From NCBI GenBank assembly GCA_002104905.1, contig MCFE01000691.1, forward strand, positions 1 to 44,566: a DNA stretch of 44,566 nucleotides, given 5' to 3'. The translations under genes were made by a program, and so were the position numbers. The number at the start of each line of letters is the position of its first letter. Position 1 is the first letter of the stretch. This document shows positions 2,129 to 44,566 of this stretch, piece by piece. Below the pieces are notes generated by a model that was not told where the DNA came from, searched no databases, and was given only the letters and a program-made list of their open reading frames with translations. Origin of the DNA: Basidiobolus meristosporus CBS 931.73. Taxonomy: Eukaryota > Basidiobolomycota > Basidiobolomycetes > Basidiobolales > Basidiobolaceae.

Positions 2129-4437
2129 ATGTTGCGTCAAATTTCACACTCTGGGAACCTCCGTAAAGCTCCCACTTTACTTCGCAACGTTCGAGGTACG
2201 TAAATCCTCCCCGCCTCCTTTCCTTTCTTTCCTGAGGGCTGGCTCTCTGGCCGGGTTTCCCCGACCACCAGCCTCTTAGCCCCCTGGCTGTTTCCTCGGC
2301 TTACTGACCTTCGTTTCTAGCCTCCCGTTGTTTCAGCGTCACCGCCGCGCGCAAGGAAGAGATCGAGATTTTCATCGATGACAAGCCAGTGAAAATCGAG
2401 CAAGGCGCGGCACTCATCCAAGCCTGCGAAAAGGCTGGTGTAGATATTCCCCGGTTTTGTTACCACGAGCGTTTGTCTGTGGCCGGTAACTGCAGAATGT
2501 GCCTTGTGGAGGTCGAGAGATCTCCCAAGCCAGTGGCTTCCTGTGCCATGCCCGCAATGCCCGGTATGAAGATTCGCACCAACTCCCCCTTAGTGAAGAA
2601 GGCTCGTGAGGGTGTGATGGAGTTTTTGTTGGCCAACCATCCTCTTGATTGCCCCATCTGTGACCAGGGTGGTGAATGCGATCTTCAGGACCAATCGATT
2701 CGTTACGGCTCGGACCGCAGCCGTTTCTCCGAGGTGGTCGGTAAGCGTGCTGTCGAGGACAAGAACCTTGGCCCCCTCGTCAAGACCTCCATGAACCGTT
2801 GCATTCAGTGTACTCGTTGCGTTCGATTCGCCAACGAGGTTGCCGGCGTTCCCGAGCTTGGTACCTCCGGCAGAGGTAACGACATGCAAATCGGCACCTA
2901 CGTCGAAAAGGCCCTCAACTCGGAGATGTCTGGCAACTTGGTTGACCTGTGCCCAGTTGGTGCCTTGACCTCCAAGCCCTATGCTTTCACATCCCGTCCC
3001 TGGGAGCTGAAGAAGACCGAGTCCATCGATGTTCTTGACGCCATTGGCAGCAACATCCGCATCGACTCCCGTGGTGTCGAAGTCATGAGAGTCCTGCCTC
3101 GTTTGAACGAGGAGGTCAACGAAGAGTGGATCTCGGATAAGACTCGTTTCGCATGCGACGGTCTCAAGAGACAGCGTCTTACCACTCCCTTGATCCGCCA
3201 AGGAAACACCTTCGTTGCCGCCACCTGGGCCGAGGCGCTCGGTGAAGTTGCCGAGAGATTGAGACAGGTCAAGCCTGCTGAGATGAAGGCCGTCGCTGGA
3301 CAATTGGCTGATGCCGAAAGTATGGTGGCCTTAAAGGACTTGTTCAATCGCTTGGGCTCGGAGAACCTCACCGTCGACAGCCCATTGACTGGACACTCTC
3401 CCGTTCACGGAGTCGACGTCCGCTCCAACTACCTGTTCAACTCCACCCTCGCTGGGGTTGACGAGGCCGATGTGGTCCTTCTCGTTGGCACCAACCCTCG
3501 CCACGAGGCACCCATCCTCAACACTCGTCTCAGAAGAAACTACCTCCACAACGGCCTTGACATCGGAGTTGTCGGGGAGTCTTCGGATTTGACATACGAT
3601 TATGAACACCTCGGCGACAACGCCGCCGCCATCGAGAAGTTGCTTTCCGGGGAGCATCCATTTGCCAAGCGCCTCGCCGAAGCCAAGAAGCCCATGATCA
3701 TTGTTGGCAGCGGGATCTCGGAGCATGAGGATGGCTCCTATGTATTCAAATCCCTCTCCGAGTTCCTCCAGAAGCACGAGTCCAAGTTCTTCCAAGAGGG
3801 CTGGAACGGCTACAACGTTTTGCAGCGCGCCGCCAGCACCGCGGGTGCCTTCGATATCGGCTTTGTTCCTCAGGCCGAATCCACTGAGGCCAAGTTCGTC
3901 TATCTCCTAGGCGCTGATGAGATCCAGTCCTCTGACATCCCCAAGGACTCTTTCGTTGTCTACCAAGGCCACCACGGTGACGTCGGCGCCAACTTCGCCG
4001 ATGTCATTCTTCCAGGTGCCGCCTACACCGAGAAGAGCGCCACCTACATCAACACCGAAGGCAGAGCTCAACTCACCAGAGCCGCCGTCTCCCCACCATC
4101 CGGTGCCCGTGAGGATTGGAAGATCATCCGTGCGCTCTCGGAGGTTGCCGGCGCTACCCTTGCCTATGACGATGTCACCACTCTTCGCGAGCGCATGAGC
4201 GACATCGCCCCCCACCTGGTCCGCTACGAATCGGTCGAGGCCACATCCCAAGCCAACTTGGGTCTCGGCCAGCTCTCCAAATTGCAAGGGTCCCCCAAGG
4301 GAAGTCCATTCCCCGCCGTCATCCAAGACTTCTATATGACCGATGTTATCAGCAGAGCCTCCTCCACCATGGCCAAATGTTCCGCAGCATTTTCTCGTAG
4401 CTCCACCAAGGAACCTTTAAAGATCGCCCATGCTTAA
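2129..4437 (+). CDS. NDUFS1: NADH-ubiquinone oxidoreductase 75 kDa subunit (complex I)
   Basis: Two exons (2129-2195, 2321-4437; intron 125 bp) give about 726 residues, the usual size for this subunit. It is the largest subunit of the peripheral arm of mitochondrial complex I and carries three iron-sulfur clusters between FMN and quinone. Seen: a short basic presequence ([19 protein letters not shown]), then the N-terminal 2Fe-2S ferredoxin domain with cysteines from about residue 69 ([15 protein letters not shown]), the 4Fe-4S binding segment [14 protein letters not shown] and the CIQCTRC motif. A molybdopterin-oxidoreductase-like domain follows. The true start is the ATG in exon 1: the long second-exon frame has no ATG before the ferredoxin domain, and exon 1 supplies the targeting peptide. 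All cluster cysteines I can check are present. Confidence 0.96.
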
Positions 4438-18322: not shown

Positions 18323-18960
18323 AGATAGCAGGATTAGCTCGAGATGTAAACTTTTTTGTTTTCTCATATTCTTGACTCTCTGAGCACAATGCCACCTTCG
18401 CATCCGACTCTTTACTAGTAATGCAACCTAATATCGACGTTTTCCAATACCTTCAATGAATAAAGACCCTTTGACTCGATGACAGACACTGTTGTTCTGC
18501 TACTCGGGCGTATCACTTGATCCTGCTGAGAATTTAAAGTTTTAATGGTTACGCTAATCATGTATTACGGGATTACTCCCTTGGACTGGCAGATGTTTGT
18601 AGAAATTTGAAGTAACAATAGATTTTACTGGTTGGATCGCCTTCATGGAATACTCGGCAACATCCCAAAATAGCAGGCAGAAAGTTGCCCATATTTAATT
18701 AAGCTTAAAATGTGCACGATGTTTTCTTCAATGGAGTTCAGATCTACCACTCTTCCCCAGCATTTCTTTAAATGAAAATTACCCAATTCAGACAGGGTTA
18801 GGGATGGAATACAGAGCCCAGGTATGTCCAATTAGTTGTTTAGTAAGTCCAAATGGTTGTTTAATTTTCTGTCTAGATGAGCAAGGATATCCTGATTGTT
18901 GTTTAGCAAAATCTTTTTTCATTCTTTTTTCGCAATTCCGATGGTTGTTCAATTTGCTGT
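18323..18960. other. intergenic, no gene seen
   Basis: AT-rich stretch between V-ATPase e and the tandem repeat. From about 18830 it contains degenerate copies of the tgttgtttag phrase that makes up the adjacent satellite. No protein or RNA gene was recognised. Confidence 0.5.
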
Positions 18961-19114
18961 TTAGTTGTGATAGGCTGCTCACATTGTTGTTTAGCTATTC
19001 AATTTCCTGTTTAGTTGTGATAGGCTGTTCACATTGTTGTTTAGCTATTCAATTTCCTGTTTAGTTGTGATAGGCTGTTCACATTGTTGTTTAGCTATTC
19101 AATTTCCTGTTTAG
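18961..19114. repeat. 50-bp tandem repeat, three copies
   Basis: Copies beginning at about 18965, 19015 and 19065 are nearly identical; one c/t difference is seen in the first. Each holds gattcaat-like and ttgtttagctattc phrases. The repeat is built from a shorter motif (cctgtttag / ttgtttag) every 20-30 bases, also seen decayed upstream from about 18830. It lies about 250 bp ahead of the COX10 start. Confidence 0.9.
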
Positions 19115-31759: not shown

Positions 31760-32574
31760 CTCCTCTGTGGGGAAGCCGTATTGCTGGTTAAGCGCTAATG
31801 CCCTATAAAATATGAAAACCCTTTCAGAACACTGCTATGCTATAGGTTCATATGGCTCGGAGAAAACCTTCTACCTTTTCCGGGGTGTTTTTTTACAACA
31901 CTTGGGTTATGGATCCAGTTAAAATTTACAAGAGCCCAAAAGTGGGGCAAAGATATGAAGAAATCCGACGAAACTTTACAAGATCAGGTAGTGTTAAGAC
32001 TCTCCAAACGATTAAATCATGGAATCAGATTCCATTTTATCTGTCTTTCAGTTATGAATACGGTATATACATCCTGCATGATCGCGGAATTTTTCTAACT
32101 TGAATCACTTCCTGAGTTGTTATTTGATTCGGCAGTGAAGTATGTTTGAGCAAAAACTATATATTACTGGTCGGAGTGACTTCTTAAATTGTGGGAGAAG
32201 ATAGACGATTGCTTTCCATTTACTATACTATGTGTTGTTTGGATAATTGGGCTATGGTGAGGGTCCTGTCTATCCAGTGTATTCCTTGTAATTTAAATGC
32301 TTCAAACATTGGAGCAGGAAGCGGCTCTCAATGTTAAAAATATGCAATTAATGATGAAGAGTTAGGGGTACTGGGCAGAAATCAACAAGAGGCAACGTGA
32401 TAAAAAGCTGAAACAAGCTGCTTGCCTCCGAAGTACCGAATCAATTTTAATTCTTTATAAGTTGCATGATTACCAGCCATATCCCGATTGATCTTGAGCA
32501 CTTGTTTCCATTCAAAGCTTTTTGCTATATCAAGTCAGTTGGGTTAGATTTAAGTTACTATACAGTGACCAGGA
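31760..32574. promoter_or_regulatory. divergent region fasciclin / tyrosinase
   Basis: About 815 AT-rich bases between the two start codons. TATA-like strings lie at about 31804 (tataaaatat, readable on both strands) and about 32456 (tataag, about 115 bp before the tyrosinase ATG). An 83-codon ATG frame at 31853-32103 has no family resemblance and is not called. Confidence 0.45.
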
Positions 32575-33933
32575 ATGAAATTCGATACAGTCTTATGGCT
32601 CTTGCCTCTTCCTTTCATGGTACACGGTGCATGTCAAGGCGTTCGGAGGCGATCAGAGATTCGAGAATTGAGTGAGGCAGAAATGTCCTCTTTCATTGGC
32701 GCCATTTTGGAGCTTAAAAGAAGAGGAAAATATGACGGATTCGTAGTGCAACATGTGGATGGTTTTCCTTTCGCACATAACTCGCCAGCGTTTTTTCCCT
32801 GGCATCGAAAATATCTACTCAACTTTGAGGATGCTCTTCGTGAGATTGATCCCGATGTTACCGTGCCTTATTGGGTAAGTATTGCTGATCACCTGTATGC
32901 CAGTTTTATAGCTGAAATTTCAATAGGATTGGACTCTAGATTCGCAAGCTCCAGAAGCCAGCCCAATATTTACATGGTTTGGTGGGAACGGAGAGGGTGA
33001 AGATAACTGCTTAAAAAGTGGGCCATTCGCAAATTGGCGAACGTCAGTACCTGAACAAAAATGCCTACAGCGGCAGTTTGACCTGCAAAATGGGTTGATT
33101 TCACCATTACAATCCCCGGAGTTACTGCATGAAGATATAGCCACATCAAAGAATTATTCAACATTACAAACAGTCATCGAGATGGGAACTCATAGTTTGG
33201 TGCATGTTGGTATTGGTGGCGAAGGAGGAGATATGAGCTTTGAATACAGTTCAAATGAGTAGGTATTACATTCTTTCGTGTGCAAATGTTGCAAAACTAA
33301 TTCGTTGTAAACTTTTCCCACCAATGTAGCCCGATATTTTGGCTAGTCCATTCTTTTGTGGATAAAATCTGGTCAACTTGGCAGTCATTTGATCCAAAAA
33401 ATGCGCTAAGCTACGATGGAATTAATCCGGCAACAAACAAATCAGTTGCATTAACTGATGTACTGGACGTTTTCGGAACACAAGTCAAAGACGTAATGAG
33501 TACGAAAAAGCTATGCTACCGATATTCTCAAACACCAGCAATTCCAATGCCAAATAACGACACGTCTATCAGCAGACCTAGTCATTCAGGATCCTCGGAG
33601 AACGATATAATTAATATCATAAAGCGTAGGTTTGGTGAAGTTGCCACTTCAAATTCCTATAGAAAACGAACAATACTATATGGAGACATACCGGCATATT
33701 TCGATATTTATGGTGGGCCAACGCCTGATGACCGAAGCGAAAAATATCAGCTTAGAGTTCCAATGGGGCTACCGCAAAAATTCATCAATAAGATGGGATA
33801 TCCTACTAGAACAGTCCGAACAATTGAGAATACACATGGGAGATTAACAAGAATAATCAATCTAAACAAGGAATATATTTCACCAGTTTCCCTAGCAAAA
33901 AAGCTACAAACCGAATTGAGTATTTTTGGTTGA
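32575..33933 (+). CDS. secreted tyrosinase-family copper oxidase
   Basis: Three exons (32575-32874, 32927-33258, 33330-33933) give 411 residues. Tyrosinases hydroxylate monophenols and oxidise o-diphenols at a type 3 dicopper site, often for melanin or wall cross-linking. Seen: a signal peptide (MKFDTVLWLLPLPFMVHGAC), a CuA site with three histidines in order (VQHVDG, AHNSP, FPWHRKYLLNFEDAL), then VPYWDWTLDS. The CuB site has MGTHSLVHVGIGGEGGDMS and NDPIFWLVHSFVDKIWSTWQ. The last motif normally reads HH; here it is VH, but the retained histidine is the one in the family pattern (one residue before x3-D). The second intron splits the D of DPIF and only one junction restores it. There is no long C-terminal lid domain or membrane anchor. 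The stop lies 9 bp before the tRNA array repeat. Confidence 0.93.
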
Positions 33934-33942
33934 AGTTCAATT

Positions 33943-34139
33943 TTTGTAGCGATTTCAATGTATAGTCACCACTTCCCCAACATTCTATAGCCAGACACAC
34001 ATATGCTGGCTTCTTTCCAGCCAGCCACCATGTAAATAACGACTAGATTCTACGCCGGGGAGTCTGGAGCCGCCACCTTCAAAAGCACGGTCGCCTCCCT
34101 CGAGAACTGTCCAGAAATACCGATGATGCATCCTCACTC
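33943..34139 (+). repeat. element E, left copy
   Basis: Begins 9 bases after the tyrosinase stop codon, so it overlaps that gene's 3' flank. It contains a small hairpin (gctgg...ccagc near 34010-34030) and the phrase acgccggggagtctggagcc. The second copy at 37705 differs by single-base losses in short homopolymers (caaaagcacggtcgcc against caaagcacgtcgc) and one inserted t. Confidence 0.9.
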
Positions 34140-34263
34140 ACCCACCATTACCCGGCAAAGGACGGCTGGGCCCCAGGGGTGGAGGGATCTGGCGCAGAGC
34201 ATATCCACAACCCATCACCATGATAGGCCAAAAGCGGGGAGTGAGAAAAATGAAAAATAAATG
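34140..34263 (+). repeat. segment L, left copy
   Basis: GC-rich block (cacccaccattacccggc onward) between E and the first tRNA. The same block is the unpaired loop of the second palindrome centre at 41466-41566, so it marks the other fold-back point. Confidence 0.85.
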
Positions 34264-34334
34264 TGCGCTAGCTGGGAGTCGAACCCAGGCCAACTGCTTG
34301 GAAGGCAGTTATTCTACCGCTATACTACTAGCGC
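34264..34334 (-). tRNA. tRNA-Gly(UCC)
   Basis: Full cloverleaf: acceptor GCGCTAG/CTAGCGC, anticodon arm ACTGC-CTTCCAA-GCAGT, T arm GGGTTCGACTCCC. No intron. A T5 run (terminator) follows about 10 bases after the 3' end. Copy 1. Confidence 0.96.
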
Positions 34335-34679
34335 CTGTTAGTTATATAAAAAATTAGAAATAATATTCTATTAATTTTAATTGGTACTACTGGCAATGCT
34401 TTCCGGCAAACCTGTCGGACAGCCTCCCTAACTTACATCCAAATCCTTGGATAGTATGCCAACAATCAATGATCGGGCTCAGCCTGGATACAACCATGAA
34501 AAATCGAATAAGGCATGTATCCAAAGGGGGAGGGACGAACCAAAAAAGGGACCATTTCCCTTGTACGAAAGTAGGGAGTTGTGTAGGAATGAGCATCCTC
34601 ATCGAATAGGCAATGTAAAAGCGATAGATTCTAGTGAAACAAAAGGTGTACAGATATAGAAGTTAAAAAGAAAAAGTAT

Positions 34680-34752
34680 CGCCCAAAGGGGGGCTCGAAC
34701 CCCCGACCCTAAGATTAAAAGTCTCATGCTCTACCGACTGAGCTATTCGGGC
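34680..34752 (-). tRNA. tRNA-Lys(UUU)
   Basis: Acceptor GCCCGAA/TTTGGGC, anticodon loop CTTTTAA, T arm GGGGGTTCGAGCCCCC. Followed by actttttcttttt, a strong Pol III terminator. No intron. Copy 1. Confidence 0.96.
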
Positions 34753-35109
34753 TCACACAATCTAGTGAGATCTATGTATATGAATACCTTCAAATAATAT
34801 GTACGCATACATGCACACGTATGTGCTCCAATATAGCAAAACCAATTTCCCAGCCATACCACTGTTAGCTGGACAGTCACCTCCACCTCCTACTAGAGCC
34901 TGCCACTTGTCTGCAGCGGAATGATACACAAACGCTGATGTGAATTGGGTTAGGGGATTCATGAAATACAAAGCCACGGAGACCTATACCTACCAGGCCT
35001 ACGCCAGTAACAGGTATAACCTCTGAGCCATTCCCCATGGAAGAACTACCGTGTGGGAAGTAATCATAGGGCTATAAGAATTTTCTACAAAGAGTACATC
35101 ATCAGTAAT

Positions 35110-35191
35110 GACACTTTGGCGGAGTGGTTAACGCGGTGCCCTGCTAAGGCATTTCCCTATGGGAGCGCAGGTTCGAATCCTGCAGGTGTCG
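35110..35191 (+). tRNA. tRNA-Ser(GCU)
   Basis: Class II tRNA with a variable arm (CCCTATGGG). Acceptor GACACTT/AGGTGTC, anticodon loop CTGCTAA. A T7 terminator follows. No intron. Copy 1. Confidence 0.96.
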
Positions 35192-35262
35192 TTCCTTTTT
35201 TTCATGTATTCTCATTGATACGAAATCATTTTAATGTATTGGAACAGCATTATCTTAGCAAT

Positions 35263-35332
35263 GGTGGGGTATAGCATAGTAGATAGATAGTCTACTGGAG
35301 GTGCTGATGGCCGAGTTCAAATCACGGAGGAT
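35263..35332 (+). pseudogene. tRNA-like relic
   Basis: A perfect five-pair anticodon-type arm (GTAGA-TAGATAG-TCTAC) is followed by a B-box-like T arm (CCGAGTTCAAATCACGG, one mismatch), but no matching acceptor stem and a minimal D region. It lies where a tenth tRNA would fit in the spacing. The loop lacks U33, so it is not a working tRNA. Copy 1. Confidence 0.35.
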
Positions 35333-35808
35333 TGATAGCGGCCGGCTGTTTGGCCTTAGAAATAATACACCCGGTTATGCAAAAATTTTTCATAGTTGGC
35401 ATAGTGTTTGCTGGGCTCCCCAACTTTAAAATAATTCTCAATTTTTAGCCAACCCTAGACGTGAGACACAGATGTATAAAATGCAACCATGAAGCTACCA
35501 GGATTCCACAAAAGGCACCAGATACTTGTAACAAAGCAATTCGTTTCCTGCTTATGATTAGAAGTTTGATCTGATGCATGATATTGGAGCACCAAACCTC
35601 GTGACAAGGAGATACTATGGATCGCGTAATTTCATAGGAGACGCCATGGCAAGTTTCAAGCTTCAAAGAATGACAAGAAATGCGTATAGATCTCCAAAAC
35701 AGCCTATGTGGCAGGAGAGTAGATTAAAGCCAAGAGAATCGATCATACAGTCTTGGAGAGGAAACACAGCATGATAAACGGCAAGCGCAAGAAAGCTAGG
35801 TATATAAT

Positions 35809-35880
35809 TCCTCATTGGTCCAGTGGTTAGGATTTCTCGCTTTCACCGAGACGGCCGGGGTTCGATTCCCCGATGGGGAA
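35809..35880 (+). tRNA. tRNA-Glu(UUC)
   Basis: Acceptor TCCTCAT/ATGGGGA, anticodon arm TCTCG-CTTTCAC-CGAGA, T arm CGGGGTTCGATTCCCCG, discriminator A, then a T4 run. No intron. Copy 1. Confidence 0.96.
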
Positions 35881-36252
35881 TAATCTTTTGTGTACTTTCG
35901 TTCATAGCTTTTTACTAAAGAGAAACGACCCGTTTCAATGGCAGTATACGGTAATTCTTGGGCGGACTCCTTCATGCGGGCCAAAAGCTGCCCATATATA
36001 AAAATAAATACAAACATATCCCACCAATATCCTATGTTGAAATATGGGCCCAGCCCCAGAGCGTCCAAGCGAGCTTACCTAAAGGTATTCCGAGGAGGTC
36101 CTGCCACAGAATGTGTGATCACCCTAGCGAAATGAGAGCAAGAATTCTCGGCTGTCACAAAATCTACATCGAGTACAGCACACAAGTAACCATCCGTTAG
36201 TATACAAACTTACAGTATGCCAATAGCTTATTTGCCAAAAAAGTAAAATACT

Positions 36253-36326
36253 CACCCCCGGTGGGACTCGAACCCACAATCCTCAGATTAGAAGTCTGAT
36301 GCCTTATCCAATTAGGCCACGGGGGC
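36253..36326 (-). tRNA. tRNA-Arg(UCU)
   Basis: Acceptor GCCCCCG/CGGGGGT, anticodon loop CTTCTAA, T arm GTGGGTTCGAGTCCCAC. T4 and T6 runs follow. No intron. Copy 1. Confidence 0.96.
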
Positions 36327-36452
36327 AATTAGTAACAGAAGAAGCGGTTGCGTGCTAAAGACTAAATCGATTTCCTATTTACCTTTCTAGACATTCTAAT
36401 GCAAAGGCATTGTACATGATATTCCACCTGTATTGGAGCTAAGTGCTCTTCC

Positions 36453-36474
36453 ACTGTAGAAATTTATCTACAGT
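36453..36474. other. hairpin in Arg-Met spacer
   Basis: Perfect 8-bp stem ACTGTAGA/TCTACAGT around a 6-base loop. Kept in copy 2 (39231-39252) and copy 3 (43778-43799). No flanking RNA gene features were seen. Confidence 0.7.
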
Positions 36475-36674
36475 AGGCCTGAGCTCAAAAACAAACCAGT
36501 AGTATGCTATACTTTGCTCATCTTAGCAGAGTGCTCCAGATAGTCAGATTATGAACTCAGCATATTCTTACCAATAAGCAGTGCTATGAAGATAGAAGCT
36601 TATGTAGGCATTGCCTTCTACAAAAAAATCTACTTGACAGAAACGTAGACTGCAACCCGCCAGGTGCAAAAGAT

Positions 36675-36747
36675 TGCTCCCTGCCAGGATCGAACTGGCG
36701 ACCTTCAGATTATGAGACTAACGCGCTGCCAACTGCGCTAAGGAAGC
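36675..36747 (-). tRNA. tRNA-Met(CAU), elongator type
   Basis: Acceptor GCTTCCT/AGGGAGC, anticodon loop CTCATAA, T loop TTCGATC rather than the initiator form, so elongator. A T4 run follows. No intron. Copy 1. Confidence 0.94.
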
Positions 36748-36799
36748 TTCTAAGCTACGGGGAAATTGGTTGCTATTTGTCATTTTTGAGTCTCCTGTA

Positions 36800-36819
36800 G
36801 TGGTACGAGAATGTACCAC
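36800..36819. other. hairpin in Met-Pro spacer
   Basis: Perfect 7-bp stem GTGGTAC/GTACCAC around gagaat. Unchanged in all three copies. Confidence 0.65.
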
Positions 36820-37048
36820 CAGCAGTTATGAATAGAGCCGGGCTCAATTGTACTCATCAGCGCTAATATCGATTTGAAACTCGAGCAAAAACCGGAGACT
36901 GCATATCCATGCTAGGTTCTTTGTATTGTCCATATAGTTACTCCTCTTCAATAGATACATAAAAACATACAATCCCTTGAGGAAGTGTAGTTGATATGTA
37001 ACAATGTACAATGGTTCACCGAAATACATCAAAAACCAAAAAGAGATC

Positions 37049-37120
37049 GGGCTCCAGCGGGAATTGAACCCGCGACCTCTCGCACCCAAAGCGAGAATCA
37101 TACTACTAGACCATAGAGCC
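37049..37120 (-). tRNA. tRNA-Pro(UGG)
   Basis: Acceptor GGCTCTA/TGGAGCC, anticodon arm CTCGC-TTTGGGT-GCGAG, T arm GCGGGTTCAATTCCCGC, then a T5 run. No intron. Copy 1. Confidence 0.96.
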
Positions 37121-37286
37121 GGATTTATGGGTAGTAGCTTTACGATTTAGATCATTTTCAGTCCGTAGTAAACCATATAGTCAAAACGATCTCGGATTTT
37201 ACTTAATTTGTAGAGTCAGATCAAGGAGGAGAGATTCATTACCTCCAAAATATAGGTTTTCTCTACAAGAACTAAAATCAAAAGAG

Positions 37287-37358
37287 CTCTCAGACCGGGA
37301 ATTGAACCCGGGTCTCCCGCGTGACAGGCGGGGATACTTACCACTATACTATCTGAGA
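37287..37358 (-). tRNA. tRNA-Asp(GUC)
   Basis: Acceptor TCTCAGA/TCTGAGA, anticodon arm CCGC-CTGTCAC-GCGG, T arm CCGGGTTCAATTCCCGG, then a T4 run. No intron. Copy 1. Confidence 0.96.
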
Positions 37359-37411
37359 TTACATATTTATTATGTACATACTTTTCTGCACAAACCTAAT
37401 ACTCTATATTA

Positions 37412-37427
37412 TGGCGGAGCTCCGCCA
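37412..37427. other. 16-bp perfect palindrome in Asp-Gln spacer
   Basis: TGGCGGAGCTCCGCCA reads identically on both strands. It is mirrored in copy 2 (38278-38293). It could be a dimeric protein site; no match to a known site is claimed. Confidence 0.7.
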
Positions 37428-37612
37428 AAAACTGCATAATCCTACGTAAACGAATGGTAGGGGAATCCTCTTGAATATCTGGGAACACGGAAATAAAAAT
37501 ACTAATCCATACTCTGATAGATCGAGTTACCCTTCTGGAAACCCATATGATGCTATTAAAAAGGACAGTGATAAAAAAAGTCCTGGTAAATGCTGAATCC
37601 CAACAAAAGATG

Positions 37613-37684
37613 AGGTCTCGCCGAGAATCGAACTCGGATTACAGGATTCAAAGTCCTGGGTGCTAACCATTACACCACGAAACC
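37613..37684 (-). tRNA. tRNA-Gln(UUG)
   Basis: Acceptor GGTTTCG/CGAGACC, anticodon arm AGGA-CTTTGAA-TCCT, T arm CCGAGTTCGATTCTCGG, then a T4 run. No intron. Copy 1; last gene before the central fold-back. Confidence 0.96.
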
Positions 37685-37704
37685 GCCTTTGTTTCATGTA
37701 AAAA

Positions 37705-37898
37705 TTTGTAGCGATTTCAATGTATAGTCACCACTTCCCCAACATTCTATAGCCAGACACACATATGCTGGCTTCTTTCCAGCCAGCCATCCATGTAAAT
37801 AACGACTAGATTCTACGCCGGGGAGTCTGGAGCCGCCACCTTCAAAGCACGTCGCTCCTCGAGAACTGTCCAGAAATACCGATGATGCATCCTCACTC
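37705..37898 (+). repeat. element E, central copy
   Basis: Second direct copy of E, at the far end of array copy 1. The first 85 bases are mirrored by the inverted partial E at 37917-38005; the remainder forms the unpaired loop of the central palindrome. Confidence 0.9.
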
Positions 37899-37916
37899 GT
37901 GATCTAGCATATACTG

Positions 37917-38005
37917 GTGGCTGGCTGAAAGAGCAGCATATGTGTGTCTGGCTATAGAATGTTGGGGGAAGTGGTGACTATACATTGAAATCGCTACAAA
38001 TTTTT
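37917..38005 (-). repeat. element E, inverted partial copy
   Basis: Reverse complement of the first part of E (from the ggctggct phrase to aatcgctacaaa). It has an extra g in the gggggaagtgg run and a shortened gctgaaagag segment compared with the other copies. Confidence 0.85.
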
Positions 38006-38020
38006 ACATGAAACAAAGGC

Positions 38021-38092
38021 GGTTTCGTGGTGTAATGGTTAGCACCCAGGACTTTGAATCCTGTAATCCGAGTTCGATTCTCGGCGAGACCT
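38021..38092 (+). tRNA. tRNA-Gln(UUG)
   Basis: Mirror image of the gene at 37613; sequence identical. First gene of inverted copy 2, about 340 bases from its mate across the fold-back. Confidence 0.96.
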
Positions 38093-38346
38093 CATCTTTT
38101 GTTGGGATTCAGCATTTACCAGGACTTTTTTTATCACTGTCCTTTTTAATAGCATCATATGGGTTTCCAGAAGGGTAACTCGATCTATCAGAGTATGGAT
38201 TAGTATTTTTATTTCCGTGTTCCCAGATATTCAAGAGGATTCCCCTACCATTCGTTTACGTAGGATTATGCAGTTTTTGGCGGAGCTCCGCCATAATATA
38301 GAGTATTAGGTTTGTGCAGAAAAGTATGTACATAATAAATATGTAA

Positions 38347-38418
38347 TCTCAGATAGTATAGTGGTAAGTATCCCCGCCTGTCACGCGGGAGACCCGGGTT
38401 CAATTCCCGGTCTGAGAG
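38347..38418 (+). tRNA. tRNA-Asp(GUC)
   Basis: Mirror of the gene at 37287, identical, with the same T4 terminator. Copy 2. Confidence 0.96.
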
Positions 38419-38584
38419 CTCTTTTGATTTTAGTTCTTGTAGAGAAAACCTATATTTTGGAGGTAATGAATCTCTCCTCCTTGATCTGACTCTACAAATT
38501 AAGTAAAATCCGAGATCGTTTTGACTATATGGTTTACTACGGACTGAAAATGATCTAAATCGTAAAGCTACTACCCATAAATCC

Positions 38585-38656
38585 GGCTCTATGGTCTAGT
38601 AGTATGATTCTCGCTTTGGGTGCGAGAGGTCGCGGGTTCAATTCCCGCTGGAGCCC
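38585..38656 (+). tRNA. tRNA-Pro(UGG)
   Basis: Mirror of the gene at 37049, identical, with the same T5 terminator. Copy 2. Confidence 0.96.
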
Positions 38657-38957
38657 GATCTCTTTTTGGTTTTTGATGTATTTCGGTGAACCATTGTACA
38701 TTGTTACATATCAACTACACTTCCTCAAGGGATTGTATGTTTTTATGTATCTATTGAAGAGGAGTAACTATATGGACAATACAAAGAACCTAGCATGGAT
38801 ATGCAGTCTCCGGTTTTTGCTCGAGTTTCAAATCGATATTAGCGCTGATGAGTACAATTGAGCCCGGCTCTATTCATAACTGCTGGTGGTACATTCTCGT
38901 ACCACTACAGGAGACTCAAAAATGACAAATAGCAACCAATTTCCCCGTAGCTTAGAA

Positions 38958-39030
38958 GCTTCCTTAGCGCAGTTGGCAGCGCGTTAGTCTCATAATCTGA
39001 AGGTCGCCAGTTCGATCCTGGCAGGGAGCA
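38958..39030 (+). tRNA. tRNA-Met(CAU), elongator type
   Basis: Mirror of the gene at 36675, identical, T4 terminator. Copy 2. Confidence 0.94.
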
Positions 39031-39378
39031 ATCTTTTGCACCTGGCGGGTTGCAGTCTACGTTTCTGTCAAGTATATTTTTTTGTAGAAGGCAATGCCTA
39101 CATAAGCTTCTATCTTCATAGCACTGCTTATTGGTAAGAATATGCTGAGTTCATAATCTGACTATCTGGAGCACTCTGCTAAGATGAGCAAAGTATAGCA
39201 TACTACTGGTTTGTTTTTGAGCTCAGGCCTACTGTAGATAAATTTCTACAGTGGAAGAGCATTTAGCTCCAATACAGGTGGAATATCATGTACAATGCCT
39301 TTGCATTAGAATGTCTAGAAAGGTAAATAGGAAATCGATTTAGTCTTTAGCACGCAACCGCTTCTTCTGTTACTAATT

Positions 39379-39452
39379 GCCCCCGTGGCCTAATTGGATA
39401 AGGCATCAGACTTCTAATCTGAGGATTGTGGGTTCGAGTCCCACCGGGGGTG
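39379..39452 (+). tRNA. tRNA-Arg(UCU)
   Basis: Mirror of the gene at 36253, identical, T4 and T6 terminators. Copy 2. Confidence 0.96.
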
Positions 39453-39824
39453 AGTATTTTACTTTTTTGGCAAATAAGCTATTGGCATACTGTAAGTTTG
39501 TATACTAACGGATGGTTACTTGTGTGCTGTACTCGATGTAGATTTTGTGACAGCCGAGAATTCTTGCTCTCATTTCGCTAGGGTGATCACACATTCTGTG
39601 GCAGGACCTCCTCGGAATACCTTTAGGTAAGCTCGCTTGGACGCTCTGGGGCTGGGCCCATATTTCAACATAGGATATTGGTGGGATATGTTTGTATTTA
39701 TTTTTATATATGGGCAGCTTTTGGCCCGCATGAAGGAGTCCGCCCAAGAATTACCGTATACTGCCATTGAAACGGGTCGTTTCTCTTTAGTAAAAAGCTA
39801 TGAACGAAAGTACACAAAAGATTA

Positions 39825-39896
39825 TTCCCCATCGGGGAATCGAACCCCGGCCGTCTCGGTGAAAGCGAGAAATCCTAACCACTGGACCAATGAGGA
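39825..39896 (-). tRNA. tRNA-Glu(UUC)
   Basis: Mirror of the gene at 35809, identical, T4 terminator. Copy 2. Confidence 0.96.
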
Positions 39897-40372
39897 ATTA
39901 TATACCTAGCTTTCTTGCGCTTGCCGTTTATCATGCTGTGTTTCCTCTCCAGAACTGTATGATCGATTCTCTTGGCTTTAATCTACTCTCCTGCCACATA
40001 GGCTGTTTTGGAGATCTATACGCATTTCTTGTCATTCTTTGAAGCTTGAAACTTGCCATGGCGTCTCCTATGAAATTACGCGATCCATAGTATCTCCTTG
40101 TCACGAGGTTTGGTGCTCCAATATCATGCATCAGATCAAACTTCTAATCATAAGCAGGAAACGAATTGCTTTGTTACAAGTATCTGGTGCCTTTTGTGGA
40201 ATCCTGGTAGCTTCATGGTTGCATTTTATACATCTGTGTCTCACGTCTAGGGTTGGCTAAAAATTGAGAATTATTTTAAAGTTGGGGAGCCCAGCAAACA
40301 CTATGCCAACTATGAAAAATTTTTGCATAACCGGGTGTATTATTTCTAAGGCCAAACAGCCGGCCGCTATCA

Positions 40373-40442
40373 ATCCTCCGTGATTTGAACTCGGCCATCA
40401 GCACCTCCAGTAGACTATCTATCTACTATGCTATACCCCACC
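40373..40442 (-). pseudogene. tRNA-like relic
   Basis: Mirror of the relic at 35263: an intact anticodon-type stem and B-box-like arm without an acceptor stem. Copy 2. Confidence 0.35.
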
Positions 40443-40513
40443 ATTGCTAAGATAATGCTGTTCCAATACATTAAAATGATTTCGTATCAATGAGAATACA
40501 TGAAAAAAAGGAA

Positions 40514-40595
40514 CGACACCTGCAGGATTCGAACCTGCGCTCCCATAGGGAAATGCCTTAGCAGGGCACCGCGTTAACCACTCCGCCAAAGTGTC
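40514..40595 (-). tRNA. tRNA-Ser(GCU)
   Basis: Mirror of the gene at 35110, identical, T7 terminator. Copy 2. Confidence 0.96.
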
Positions 40596-40952
40596 ATTAC
40601 TGATGATGTACTCTTTGTAGAAAATTCTTATAGCCCTATGATTACTTCCCACACGGTAGTTCTTCCATGGGGAATGGCTCAGAGGTTATACCTGTTACTG
40701 GCGTAGGCCTGGTAGGTATAGGTCTCCGTGGCTTTGTATTTCATGAATCCCCTAACCCAATTCACATCAGCGTTTGTGTATCATTCCGCTGCAGACAAGT
40801 GGCAGGCTCTAGTAGGAGGTGGAGGTGACTGTCCAGCTAACAGTGGTATGGCTGGGAAATTGGTTTTGCTATATTGGAGCACATACGTGTGCATGTATGC
40901 GTACATATTATTTGAAGGTATTCATATACATAGATCTCACTAGATTGTGTGA

Positions 40953-41025
40953 GCCCGAATAGCTCAGTCGGTAGAGCATGAGACTTTTAATCTTAGGGTC
41001 GGGGGTTCGAGCCCCCCTTTGGGCG
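40953..41025 (+). tRNA. tRNA-Lys(UUU)
   Basis: Mirror of the gene at 34680, identical, T5 terminator. Copy 2. Confidence 0.96.
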
Positions 41026-41370
41026 ATACTTTTTCTTTTTAACTTCTATATCTGTACACCTTTTGTTTCACTAGAATCTATCGCTTTTACATTGCCTATT
41101 CGATGAGGATGCTCATTCCTACACAACTCCCTACTTTCGTACAAGGGAAATGGTCCCTTTTTTGGTTCGTCCCTCCCCCTTTGGATACATGCCTTATTCG
41201 ATTTTTCATGGTTGTATCCAGGCTGAGCCCGATCATTGATTGTTGGCATACTATCCAAGGATTTGGATGTAAGTTAGGGAGGCTGTCCGACAGGTTTGCC
41301 GGAAAGCATTGCCAGTAGTACCAATTAAAATTAATAGAATATTATTTCTAATTTTTTATATAACTAACAG

Positions 41371-41441
41371 GCGCTAGTAGTATAGCGGTAGAATAACTGC
41401 CTTCCAAGCAGTTGGCCTGGGTTCGACTCCCAGCTAGCGCA
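41371..41441 (+). tRNA. tRNA-Gly(UCC)
   Basis: Mirror of the gene at 34264, identical. Last gene of copy 2; its 3' end points into the second fold-back. Confidence 0.96.
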
Positions 41442-41465
41442 CATTTATTTTTCATTTTTCTCACT

Positions 41466-41566
41466 CACCCACCATTACCCGGCAAAGGACGGCTGGGCCC
41501 CAGGGGTGGAGGGATCTGGCGCAGAGCATATCCACAACCCATCACCATGATAGGCCAAAAGCGGGG
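41466..41566 (+). repeat. segment L, loop of second palindrome centre
   Basis: The single copy of L lies between arms ending in tttttctcact (41465) and starting agtgagaaaaa (41567). It is in the same orientation as the left copy at 34140. Confidence 0.9.
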
Positions 41567-41590
41567 AGTGAGAAAAATGAAAAATAAATG

Positions 41591-41661
41591 TGCGCTAGCT
41601 GGGAGTCGAACCCAGGCCAACTGCTTGGAAGGCAGTTATTCTACCGCTATACTACTAGCGC
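41591..41661 (-). tRNA. tRNA-Gly(UCC)
   Basis: Third copy, identical. Faces the copy-2 Gly gene tail to tail across segment L. Confidence 0.96.
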
Positions 41662-42005
41662 CTGTTAGTTATATAAAAAATTAGAATAATATTCTATTAA
41701 TTTTAATTGGTACTACTGGCAATGCTTTCCGGCAAACCTGTCGGACAGCCTCCCTAACTTACATCCAAATCCTTGGATAGTATGCCAACAATCAATGATC
41801 GGGCTCAGCCTGGATACAACCATGAAAAATCGAATAAGGCATGTATCCAAAGGGGGAGGGACGAACCAAAAAAGGGACCATTTCCCTTGTACGAAAGTAG
41901 GGAGTTGTGTAGGAATGAGCATCCTCATCGAATAGGCAATGTAAAAGCGATAGATTCTAGTGAAACAAAAGGTGTACAGATATAGAAGTTAAAAAGAAAA
42001 AGTAT

Positions 42006-42078
42006 CGCCCAAAGGGGGGCTCGAACCCCCGACCCTAAGATTAAAAGTCTCATGCTCTACCGACTGAGCTATTCGGGC
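42006..42078 (-). tRNA. tRNA-Lys(UUU)
   Basis: Third copy of the 34680 gene, identical, same terminator. Confidence 0.96.
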
Positions 42079-42435
42079 TCACACAATCTAGTGAGATCTA
42101 TGTATATGAATACCTTCAAATAATATGTACGCATACATGCACACGTATGTGCTCCAATATAGCAAAACCAATTTCCCAGCCATACCACTGTTAGCTGGAC
42201 AGTCACCTCCACCTCCTACTAGAGCCTGCCACTTGTCTGCAGCGGAATGATACACAAACGCTGATGTGAATTGGGTTAGGGGATTCATGAAATACAAAGC
42301 CACGGAGACCTATACCTACCAGGCCTACGCCAGTAACAGGTATAACCTCTGAGCCATTCCCCATGGAAGAACTACCGTGTGGGAAGTAATCATAGGGCTA
42401 TAAGAATTTTCTACAAAGAGTACATCATCAGTAAT

Positions 42436-42517
42436 GACACTTTGGCGGAGTGGTTAACGCGGTGCCCTGCTAAGGCATTTCCCTATGGGAGCGCAGGTTC
42501 GAATCCTGCAGGTGTCG
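42436..42517 (+). tRNA. tRNA-Ser(GCU)
   Basis: Third copy of the 35110 gene, identical, T7 terminator. Confidence 0.96.
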
Positions 42518-42588
42518 TTCCTTTTTTTCATGTATTCTCATTGATACGAAATCATTTTAATGTATTGGAACAGCATTATCTTAGCAAT

Positions 42589-42658
42589 GGTGGGGTATAG
42601 CATAGTAGATAGATAGTCTACTGGAGGTGCTGATGGCCGAGTTCAAATCACGGAGGAT
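42589..42658 (+). pseudogene. tRNA-like relic
   Basis: Third copy of the relic at 35263, unchanged. Confidence 0.35.
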
Positions 42659-43133
42659 TGATAGCGGCCGGCTGTTTGGCCTTAGAAATAATACACCCGG
42701 TTATGCAAAAATTTTTCATAGTTGGCATAGTGTTTGCTGGGCTCCCCAACTTTAAAATAATTCTCAATTTTTAGCCAACCCTAGACGTGAGACACAGATG
42801 TATAAAATGCAACCATGAAGCTACCAGGATTCCACAAAAGGCACCAGATACTTGTAACAAAGCAATTCGTTTCCTGCTTATGATTAGAAGTTTGATCTGA
42901 TGCATGATATTGGAGCACCAAACCTCGTGACAAGGAGATACTATGGATCGCGTAATTTCATAGGAGACGCCATGGCAAGTTTCAAGCTTCAAAGAATGAC
43001 AAGAAATGCGTATAGATCTCCAAAACAGCCTATGTGGCAGGAGAGTAGATTAAAGCCAAGAGAATCGATCATACAGTCTGGAGAGGAAACACAGCATGAT
43101 AAACGGCAAGCGCAAGAAAGCTAGGTATATAAT

Positions 43134-43205
43134 TCCTCATTGGTCCAGTGGTTAGGATTTCTCGCTTTCACCGAGACGGCCGGGGTTCGATTCCCCGATG
43201 GGGAA
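43134..43205 (+). tRNA. tRNA-Glu(UUC)
   Basis: Third copy of the 35809 gene, identical, T4 terminator. Confidence 0.96.
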
Positions 43206-43577
43206 TAATCTTTTGTGTACTTTCGTTCATAGCTTTTTACTAAAGAGAAACGACCCGTTTCAATGGCAGTATACGGTAATTCTTGGGCGGACTCCTTCAT
43301 GCGGGCCAAAAGCTGCCCATATATAAAAATAAATACAAACATATCCCACCAATATCCTATGTTGAAATATGGGCCCAGCCCCAGAGCGTCCAAGCGAGCT
43401 TACCTAAAGGTATTCCGAGGAGGTCCTGCCACAGAATGTGTGATCACCCTAGCGAAATGAGAGCAAGAATTCTCGGCTGTCACAAAATCTACATCGAGTA
43501 CAGCACACAAGTAACCATCCGTTAGTATACAAACTTACAGTATGCCAATAGCTTATTTGCCAAAAAAGTAAAATACT

Positions 43578-43651
43578 CACCCCCGGTGGGACTCGAACCC
43601 ACAATCCTCAGATTAGAAGTCTGATGCCTTATCCAATTAGGCCACGGGGGC
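43578..43651 (-). tRNA. tRNA-Arg(UCU)
   Basis: Third copy of the 36253 gene, identical. Confidence 0.96.
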
Positions 43652-43999
43652 AATTAGTAACAGAAGAAGCGGTTGCGTGCTAAAGACTAAATCGATTTCC
43701 TATTTACCTTTCTAGACATTCTAATGCAAAGGCATTGTACATGATATTCCACCTGTATTGGAGCTAAATGCTCTTCCACTGTAGAAATTTATCTACAGTA
43801 GGCCTGAGCTCAAAAACAAACCAGTAGTATGCTATACTTTGCTCATCTTAGCAGAGTGCTCCAGATAGTCAGATTATGAACTCAGCATATTCTTACCAAT
43901 AAGCAGTGCTATGAAGATAGAAGCTTATGTAGGCATTGCCTTCTACAAAAAAATATACTTGACAGAAACGTAGACTGCAACCCGCCAGGTGCAAAAGAT

Positions 44000-44072
44000 T
44001 GCTCCCTGCCAGGATCGAACTGGCGACCTTCAGATTATGAGACTAACGCGCTGCCAACTGCGCTAAGGAAGC
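44000..44072 (-). tRNA. tRNA-Met(CAU), elongator type
   Basis: Third copy of the 36675 gene, identical. Confidence 0.94.
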
Positions 44073-44373
44073 TTCTAAGCTACGGGGAAATTGGTTGCTA
44101 TTTGTCATTTTTGAGTCTCCTGTAGTGGTACGAGAATGTACCACCAGCAGTTATGAATAGAGCCGGGCTCAATTGTACTCATCAGCGCTAATATCGATTT
44201 GAAACTCGAGCAAAAACCGGAGACTGCATATCCATGCTAGGTTCTTTGTATTGTCCATATAGTTACTCCTCTTCAATAGATACATAAAAACATACAATCC
44301 CTTGAGGAAGTGTAGTTGATATGTAACAATGTACAATGGTTCACCGAAATACATCAAAAACCAAAAAGAGATC

Positions 44374-44445
44374 GGGCTCCAGCGGGAATTGAACCCGCGA
44401 CCTCTCGCACCCAAAGCGAGAATCATACTACTAGACCATAGAGCC
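44374..44445 (-). tRNA. tRNA-Pro(UGG)
   Basis: Third copy of the 37049 gene, identical. It is the last complete gene in the window. Confidence 0.96.
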
Positions 44446-44566
44446 GGATTTATGGGTAGTAGCTTTACGATTTAGATCATTTTCAGTCCGTAGTAAACCA
44501 TATAGTCAAAACGATCTCGGATTTTACTTAATTTGTAGAGTCAGATCAAGGAGGAGAGATTCATTG

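Follow-up and report, generated by a model that had tools for sequence, protein, structure and literature searches.

At the right end of contig C970 of Basidiobolus meristosporus CBS 931.73, transfer RNA (tRNA) genes stand in a block that reads forward, inverted and forward again. Whether this mirror-image layout is the true arrangement of the DNA, and how the block relates to the other tRNA genes of the fungus, are the questions that the locus raises. The window analyzed here is the whole contig (44,566 bp), one of 1,311 in an assembly of 89.0 Mb. We consider it likely that the block marks the border of a tandem multi-tRNA array, one among many in B. meristosporus, and that this border carries a probably false inverted insert.

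The tRNA genes were called with ARAGORN, which was rerun with the intron search on, and Rfam matches served as a second line of evidence. ARAGORN placed 25 tRNA genes between 34,263 and 44,445 and none elsewhere in the window; the Rfam matches in the window (58–70 bits) were likewise tRNA in 25 of 25 cases. Nine kinds are present: Gly-TCC, Lys-TTT, Ser-GCT, Glu-TTC, Arg-TCT, Met, Pro-TGG, Asp-GTC and Gln-TTG. The Met gene is not of the AGCAGCG.. kind, which we take to be the initiator. ARAGORN reported no intron in any of them, the intron search included, and all nine genes of the first forward copy (copy A) are followed within 40 nt by a run of at least four T. No open frame of 200 residues or more lies inside the array. 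The initial annotation, made from the sequence alone, had described 25 intact intronless genes of nine kinds in forward, inverted and forward order with no protein gene among them, and ARAGORN, Rfam, the inverted-arm search and the absence of such frames bear this out.

The unit, put at about 3.8 kb before, has a period of 3,762 bp, as the left-edge sequence at 33,943 comes again at 37,705. The left edge is ten bases past the stop of a tyrosinase-like frame. On the other side the array runs into the contig end within copy C, the second forward copy. The true length of the array may therefore exceed the assembled one, since the contig stops inside the third copy. Three pairs of inverted arms were found: 34,236–37,740 with 37,965–41,469 (sum of positions 75,705), 39,954–41,356 with 41,675–43,077 (sum 83,031), and 38,465–39,953 with 43,077–44,565 (sum 83,030). 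The mirror sums given earlier thus stand, but the copies are not fully identical. Copy A differs from both the inverted copy (copy B) and copy C at 36,443 and 36,630, all three copies differ at position 35,752, and single-base insertions or deletions (indels) are also present between copies. The segment 41,460–44,565 is 99.87% identical to 34,133–37,240. A 601-bp piece of the unit had three full-length matches in the genome, all in the window (40 of 53 candidates scored), and within that same search no unit copy that could supply the right flank was found on another contig. A DNA search with 31,900–33,960 for a homeologous site free of the array returned only two short weak matches elsewhere. 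Within the window, the head-to-tail evidence consists only of the 194-bp start of a second unit and copy C, which are in register if copy B is omitted.

The head-to-tail arrangement is seen far more fully in other contigs. Genome searches with DNA and with the tRNA family gave hits at regular spacings on many of them. Stretches of 21 contigs, chosen because of such hits, were sampled, and together with the window they gave 460 ARAGORN calls in 289,420 bases. At least ten types of repeated unit were found, with 9, 9, 10, 12, 12, 13, 14, 14, 17 and 17 genes and mostly head to tail. Nine of the ten are 3.5–5.9 kb long; the tenth, of about 10.1 kb, contains a retroelement. Jointly the ten types carry 27 anticodon types that cover all 20 amino acids. 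The ARAGORN calls of "Asp with intron" were reread from their sequences as tRNA-Tyr(GTA) with an intron of 10–13 nt. A run of at least four T lies within about 40 nt downstream of 446 of the 460 genes, compared with 20% of 5,000 random 41-mers. The layout that the initial annotation considered unusual is indeed what the assembly displays, yet its unit is one of at least ten unit types in the genome, and the usual joint among them is head to tail.

Successive units are almost free of differences. Thirteen comparisons in ten other contigs gave two indels and one mismatch in 11,713 bp overall. The tandem units of C964 are 100% identical over 10,830 bp, units 1 and 2 of C615 are identical at 3,488 of 3,488 bp, and the units of C418 agree at 99.95% over 3,991 bp. 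Between unit types the spacers are mostly unlike, with short exceptions, and the gene order is partly shared: the ten types have 100 oriented neighbor pairs in common, against a mean of 8.5 and a maximum of 23 in 5,000 shuffles. This count left out C1291, which is 99.35% identical to C339, and C713, which has the same 12 genes as C1258; with C1291 kept, the figures were 133 against 11.1 in 2,000 shuffles. Shared order with diverged spacers is the pattern that old duplicated arrays, each homogenised within itself, would leave. The unit of the window fits this pattern less well, as it has only three neighbor pairs in common with others (C426 and C615), a number reached by 208 of 5,000 shuffles.

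Decayed copies were also encountered. A stretch of C1117 (L037) matches the C615 unit and has a CpG observed/expected ratio of 0.02, compared with 0.72–0.78 in three arrays, and one copy in C680 (C680:183416-185000) has transitions at 28 of 102 CpG bases. Such relics look as if silenced copies had been methylated. A further arrangement resembles dimeric tRNA genes, with a spacer of just some five bases between Ser(AGA) and Ile(AAT) (C426:127190-127350, and also in C275, C418, C439, C1268, C249 and C1306). A different kind of tRNA repeat occurs in C231:6092-9834 (L028), where four Arg(TCG) genes stand about 1.0–1.4 kb apart among diverged repeats; C13 and C552 have DNA hits at a similar spacing and perhaps hold the same kind.

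How much of the tRNA gene set lies in arrays was estimated in two ways. Exact patterns searched in the whole genome gave 28 copies for Lys(CTT), 8 for Lys(TTT), 18 for Gln, 11 for initiator-like Met and 21 for Trp, 86 in total. All except two of these are on contigs with clusters that were seen, 75 in the stretches read and 9 elsewhere on the same contigs; the remaining two are on C1107, outside the contigs read. The patterns were derived from array genes, however, and diverged dispersed genes would escape them, which limits what the count says for the arrays. A tRNA-family search is free of this bias, and in it 62 of the 62 matches listed sit on contigs with at least two tRNA genes together (63 of 3,931 candidates scored). 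Also to be set on the opposing side is Ser(TGA), the pattern of which was found once in the genome, within a cluster not seen in tandem. This is a six-gene cluster in C216:10700-12730 (L040/L038/L041), comprising Val(CAC), Val(TAC), Thr(TGT), Ser(TGA), Ala(TGC) and His, with no tandem repetition over the stretch read. Those common isoacceptors that were sampled lie in arrays, and at least one rarer isoacceptor was not seen in a tandem array.

Several arrays harbor a retrotransposon with long terminal repeats (LTRs). It is 5.38 kb in length with LTRs of about 310 bp and a single gag-pol frame of 1,462 residues, for example in C964 (L011:3026-7411). Eleven Pfam families were matched by the frame, one of them below its cut-off, and they include Ty3_capsid at 8.6e-15. 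Of 23 terminal-motif matches listed with a tRNA gene within 400 bp, 12 are 9–12 bp upstream of the tRNA 5′ end; the other 11 include distal ends of these elements and perhaps 8-mers that match by chance. Exact LTR ends number 39 in the genome, 28 of them on contigs with tRNA clusters that were seen; the other 11 lie outside the stretches read. The gag-pol domains, together with insertion next to starts of RNA polymerase III (Pol III) transcription, assign the element to the Ty3 type. Like Ty3 of yeast it has a Ty3-type capsid, reverse transcriptase, RNase H and integrase and inserts beside the start of tRNA genes. It differs in its one frame of 1,462 residues, its LTRs of about 310 bp and its distance of 9–12 bp from the mature 5′ end.

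The inverted copy of the window has to be judged by its joints. Eight fold-backs were compared, two each in C970, C615 and C1258 and one each in C16 and C964; suspected ones in C1306 and C1107, indicated by pattern hits on opposite strands, stand outside the eight. In every one of the eight the inner 150 bp of the arms contain indels (8, 2, 6, 4, 1, 3, 3 and 5; sum 32), whereas the outer arms have no indel and two mismatches in 5,669 bp. Two of the eight (in C615 and C964) lie inside a retrotransposon and not in tRNA units. At centre 1 of the window, the 194 bp leading up to the joint contain five single-base indels, and in the 99 bp that follow, nine bases are inserted or deleted. When 37,899–41,466 is omitted, the forward parts join in register into one continuous unit. 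Over 758 bp this join shows six single-base indels, and all but one of them fall in the poor stretch before centre 1. The probability of such register by chance is about 0.45%, a figure judged post hoc. The palindrome is doubtful because the fold-back joints carry indels while the head-to-tail comparisons are almost free of error, and the indel clusters fit joints carried by few raw reads. The platform used to sequence the B. meristosporus CBS 931.73 genome was PacBio, according to the part of the source available (PMC7466969). In unamplified PacBio control data, another study describes palindromes in 0.5% of reads, some of them false positives and others due to missed adapters (PMC6218980). 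Copy B is thus probably a fold-back read or an assembly artefact and not a regular feature of the array. The alternating, palindromic layout as a true arrangement is weakened, with the centre at 37.9 kb, like the other fold-backs compared, rich in small indels and the tandem repeat restored when copy B is left out.

Several observations weigh against this reading of copy B. Centre 2 is nearly clean, its loop agrees with the left-edge copy, and it falls on a 7-bp inverted repeat, a position that would also suit a genuine rearrangement by fold-back. Two substitutions common to B and C set A apart, and copy B is therefore not simply the molecule of A read backwards. Each of the two centres shows a gap of about 90 nt, which a plain missed adapter would not give. 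Poor consensus could also arise from bad mapping of reads at real palindromes. Fold-backs are not everywhere, since no inverted repeat was found in the other 33,942 bases of the window. In three recent PacBio data sets (HiFi and Mas-Seq), foldback reads are virtually nil or 0.03%, as stated in the available portion of that report (PMC12870357). A plain missed-adapter origin of centre 1 was rejected in its simple form, given the two substitutions between A and B/C and the loss of about 90 nt per turn.

A real palindrome is the strongest alternative, though we regard it as unlikely. If broken DNA were repaired with template switching at short inverted repeats, the array would grow into a forward, inverted and forward triplication, and this would happen frequently in the arrays of this genome. 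Duplication with inverted triplication in human genomic disorders offers a likeness for such growth of palindromes. The alternative gains from the word CTCACTC at both outer edges of B, from the state of centre 2, from the substitutions that separate A from B and C, and from the fold-backs of tRNA units outside the window, in C615, C1258 and C16. It loses by the indels at all eight joints with none in the outer arms, and by the two fold-backs situated in a retrotransposon. Were the inverted copies real, which is the lesser chance, the arrays would be in flux through fold-back template switching at short inverted repeats, with repeated triplications in head-to-tail arrays of 9–17-gene units, next to a Ty3-type element with the same target sites.

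Another alternative, which seems improbable, is that the arrays are structural, replacing telomeres or forming a centromere or heterochromatin boundary, and that tRNA supply is secondary. A telomere role was proposed for the arrays of Entamoeba, as given in the accessible part of that study (PMC2652664), and the retrotransposons that collect in the present arrays would suit a structural function. However, the genome has 6,978 forward and 73 reverse overlapping matches to TTAGGG, the control giving 0 and 12. In C1, among the matches listed, TTAGGG stands at the extreme end of the contig; the tRNA arrays read there, at 145–155 kb, are about 190 kb away. A telomere role is disfavored, since ordinary TTAGGG repeats exist. 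Moreover, the arrays cover 20 amino acids and their genes have terminators. That assembly error made the entire tRNA repeat, with its tandem copies, out of a few clustered tRNA genes is very improbable: arrays do touch contig ends in C970, C426, C615, C964 and C1258, several array contigs are short (10–25 kb) and fold-backs are frequent in them, but ten distinct unit types, near-perfect successive units, and arrays within or beside tRNA-free sequence in the longer contigs C426, C680, C1268 and C1 speak against it. So do the CpG-depleted copies in C1117 and C680, since fresh artefacts would show no such decay.

The preferred reading, a tandem array with a probably false inverted insert, draws on the units, their identity, their gene order and the quality of their joints, all observed in the assembly, and suggests the following course. 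Each array would repeat, mostly head to tail, a unit of 9–17 different intact tRNA genes for Pol III. The arrays probably supply the bulk of the common tRNAs, as the ribosomal DNA (rDNA) supplies rRNA. Near-identity within an array may be kept through unequal exchange or gene conversion, and different arrays would retain parts of a common gene order while their spacers mostly diverge. In the window, copy B would be an insert that interrupts a head-to-tail unit continuous but for it, and the joint there is poorly supported by the sequence.

Features of the tRNA array in the window, with repeat units of other contigs for comparison (positions refer to C970)
Feature	Position	Strand	Basis or remark
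Array unit, copy A, 3,762 bp, nine tRNA genes, left edge of array	33943..37704	+	first bases recur at 37,705
Start (194 bp) of next head-to-tail unit, five single-base indels	37705..37898	+	alignment to 33,943-34,139
Inverted copy B, 3,568 bp, nine tRNA genes, probably false insert	37899..41466	-	inverted arms; omission restores head-to-tail register
Copy C, seven tRNA genes, cut by contig end	41467..44566	+	continues the 37,705 unit if B is omitted
Fold-back centre 1	37892..38000		joint 37,898/37,899, indel-rich on both sides; 8 indels in inner 150 bp
Fold-back centre 2	41460..41570		joint at CTCACTC (41,460-41,466), loop about 92 nt; 2 indels in inner 150 bp
CTCACTC, left half of 7-bp inverted repeat	34133..34139	+	word stands at both outer edges of B
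GAGTGAG, right half of 7-bp inverted repeat	34239..34245	+	partner 34133..34139
tRNA-Gly(TCC)	34263..34334	-	ARAGORN, Rfam
tRNA-Lys(TTT)	34680..34752	-	ARAGORN, Rfam; 8 exact genome matches, on C426, C615, C970
tRNA-Ser(GCT)	35109..35192	+	ARAGORN, Rfam
tRNA-Glu(TTC)	35808..35881	+	ARAGORN, Rfam
tRNA-Arg(TCT)	36252..36327	-	ARAGORN, Rfam
tRNA-Met(CAT), other than AGCAGCG.. kind	36675..36747	-	ARAGORN, Rfam
tRNA-Pro(TGG)	37049..37120	-	ARAGORN, Rfam
tRNA-Asp(GTC)	37286..37358	-	ARAGORN, Rfam
tRNA-Gln(TTG)	37612..37684	-	ARAGORN, Rfam
tRNA genes of copy B: Gln 38021, Asp 38347, Pro 38585, Met 38958, Arg 39378, Glu 39824(-), Ser 40513(-), Lys 40953, Gly 41371	38021..41442		ARAGORN, Rfam
tRNA genes of copy C: Gly 41590(-), Lys 42006(-), Ser 42435(+), Glu 43133(+), Arg 43577(-), Met 44000(-), Pro 44374(-)	41590..44445		ARAGORN, Rfam
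Last exon-like frame of tyrosinase-like gene bordering the array	33301..33933	+	PF00264, E 0.0004, 21.2 bits, under curated cut-off of 22.6
C964 unit, 17 genes			5,227 bp
Second C964 unit type			period about 10.1 kb, retroelement between copies
C275 unit, 17 genes			5,488 bp
C339 unit, 14 genes			5,488 bp
C1268 unit, 14 genes			about 4,315 bp
C1258 unit, 12 genes			about 4,328 bp
C418 unit, 12 genes			about 5,898 bp
C426 unit, 9 genes			4,007 bp
C615 unit, 10 genes			3,488 bp

The remainder of the window (1–33,942) has a G+C content of about 0.52 in the first 16 kb and then about 0.43. At 2308–4434 it encodes NDUFS1, which is 100% identical to the B. meristosporus CBS 931.73 protein over 99% of the query, 92% identical to that of B. 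ranarum, and 90% identical to a second B. meristosporus copy on another contig; these values hint at an old duplication or a hybrid genome. At 18948–19114 there is a short tandem repeat, its period being about 50 bp.

The window can be set beside the centromere of fission yeast, where tRNA genes form boundaries and inverted repeats flank a central core that carries CENP-A. In the window, by comparison, what lies at the two centres are loops of about 90 nt.

Tandem tRNA arrays were at first reported only from Entamoeba, and the accessible portion of that account gives several points of comparison (PMC2652664). In Entamoeba almost all tRNA genes are in long tandem arrays of uniform multi-tRNA units, and neighbor order is partly common to arrays of different species, as seen here between unit types. 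The Entamoeba units have 1–5 tRNA genes, compared with 9–17 in Basidiobolus, and some of them carry 5S RNA (PMC2652664). In Basidiobolus, all 140 Rfam matches in ten loci were tRNA and none 5S RNA, and the same holds for the 25 matches of the window. Short tandem repeats separate the genes in E. histolytica and E. dispar (PMC2652664); none was found at score 40 within 33,900–37,960, that is, in the unit of the window. No telomere-like sequence was found in E. histolytica, according to the same portion (PMC2652664), in contrast to the TTAGGG of Basidiobolus. Array formation can thus be separated from the idea of telomere replacement in Entamoeba, because the present genome has ordinary telomere repeats.

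Other systems share single aspects, as described in the available parts of the respective papers. In a long-read assembly of Phytophthora infestans, tRNA genes are largely in tandem arrays, but this organism is an oomycete and its units are same-gene, dimeric or trimeric, with 7,519 genes on chromosomes (PMC9584435). Dimeric and trimeric tRNA arrays are called infrequent in fungi (PMC9584435). A 7.3-kb unit with five tRNA genes on both strands is tandem and variable in copy number at human 1q23.3; it is a single locus, with other gene copies elsewhere, and binds CTCF (PMC4041453). Hydractinia, an animal, also has tandem tRNA arrays, and large multi-isotype units are not described in the portion of text available (PMC11067881). 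A report of such multi-isotype arrays in Basidiobolus or another fungus was not found in the open-licence literature of PubMed Central, which is no proof of absence.

The initial annotation was right in finding a real multi-isotype tRNA array in a fungus and apt in comparing it with Entamoeba. What is new is the larger number of genes per unit, the lack of 5S RNA in the loci tested and of short tandem repeats in the unit of the window, and the presence of normal telomere repeats. Mirror-image arrays in older PacBio assemblies call for checks at the level of reads. Because Basidiobolus meristosporus can be cultured, it becomes possible to test how many copies the arrays have, how they are homogenised, whether Pol III occupies them and how the Ty3-like element is targeted. 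If the main tRNA set of this fungus is indeed held in rDNA-like multi-isotype arrays, it would be a further, separate case beside Entamoeba, P. infestans, human 1q23.3 and Hydractinia, with the most gene-rich units among these cases.

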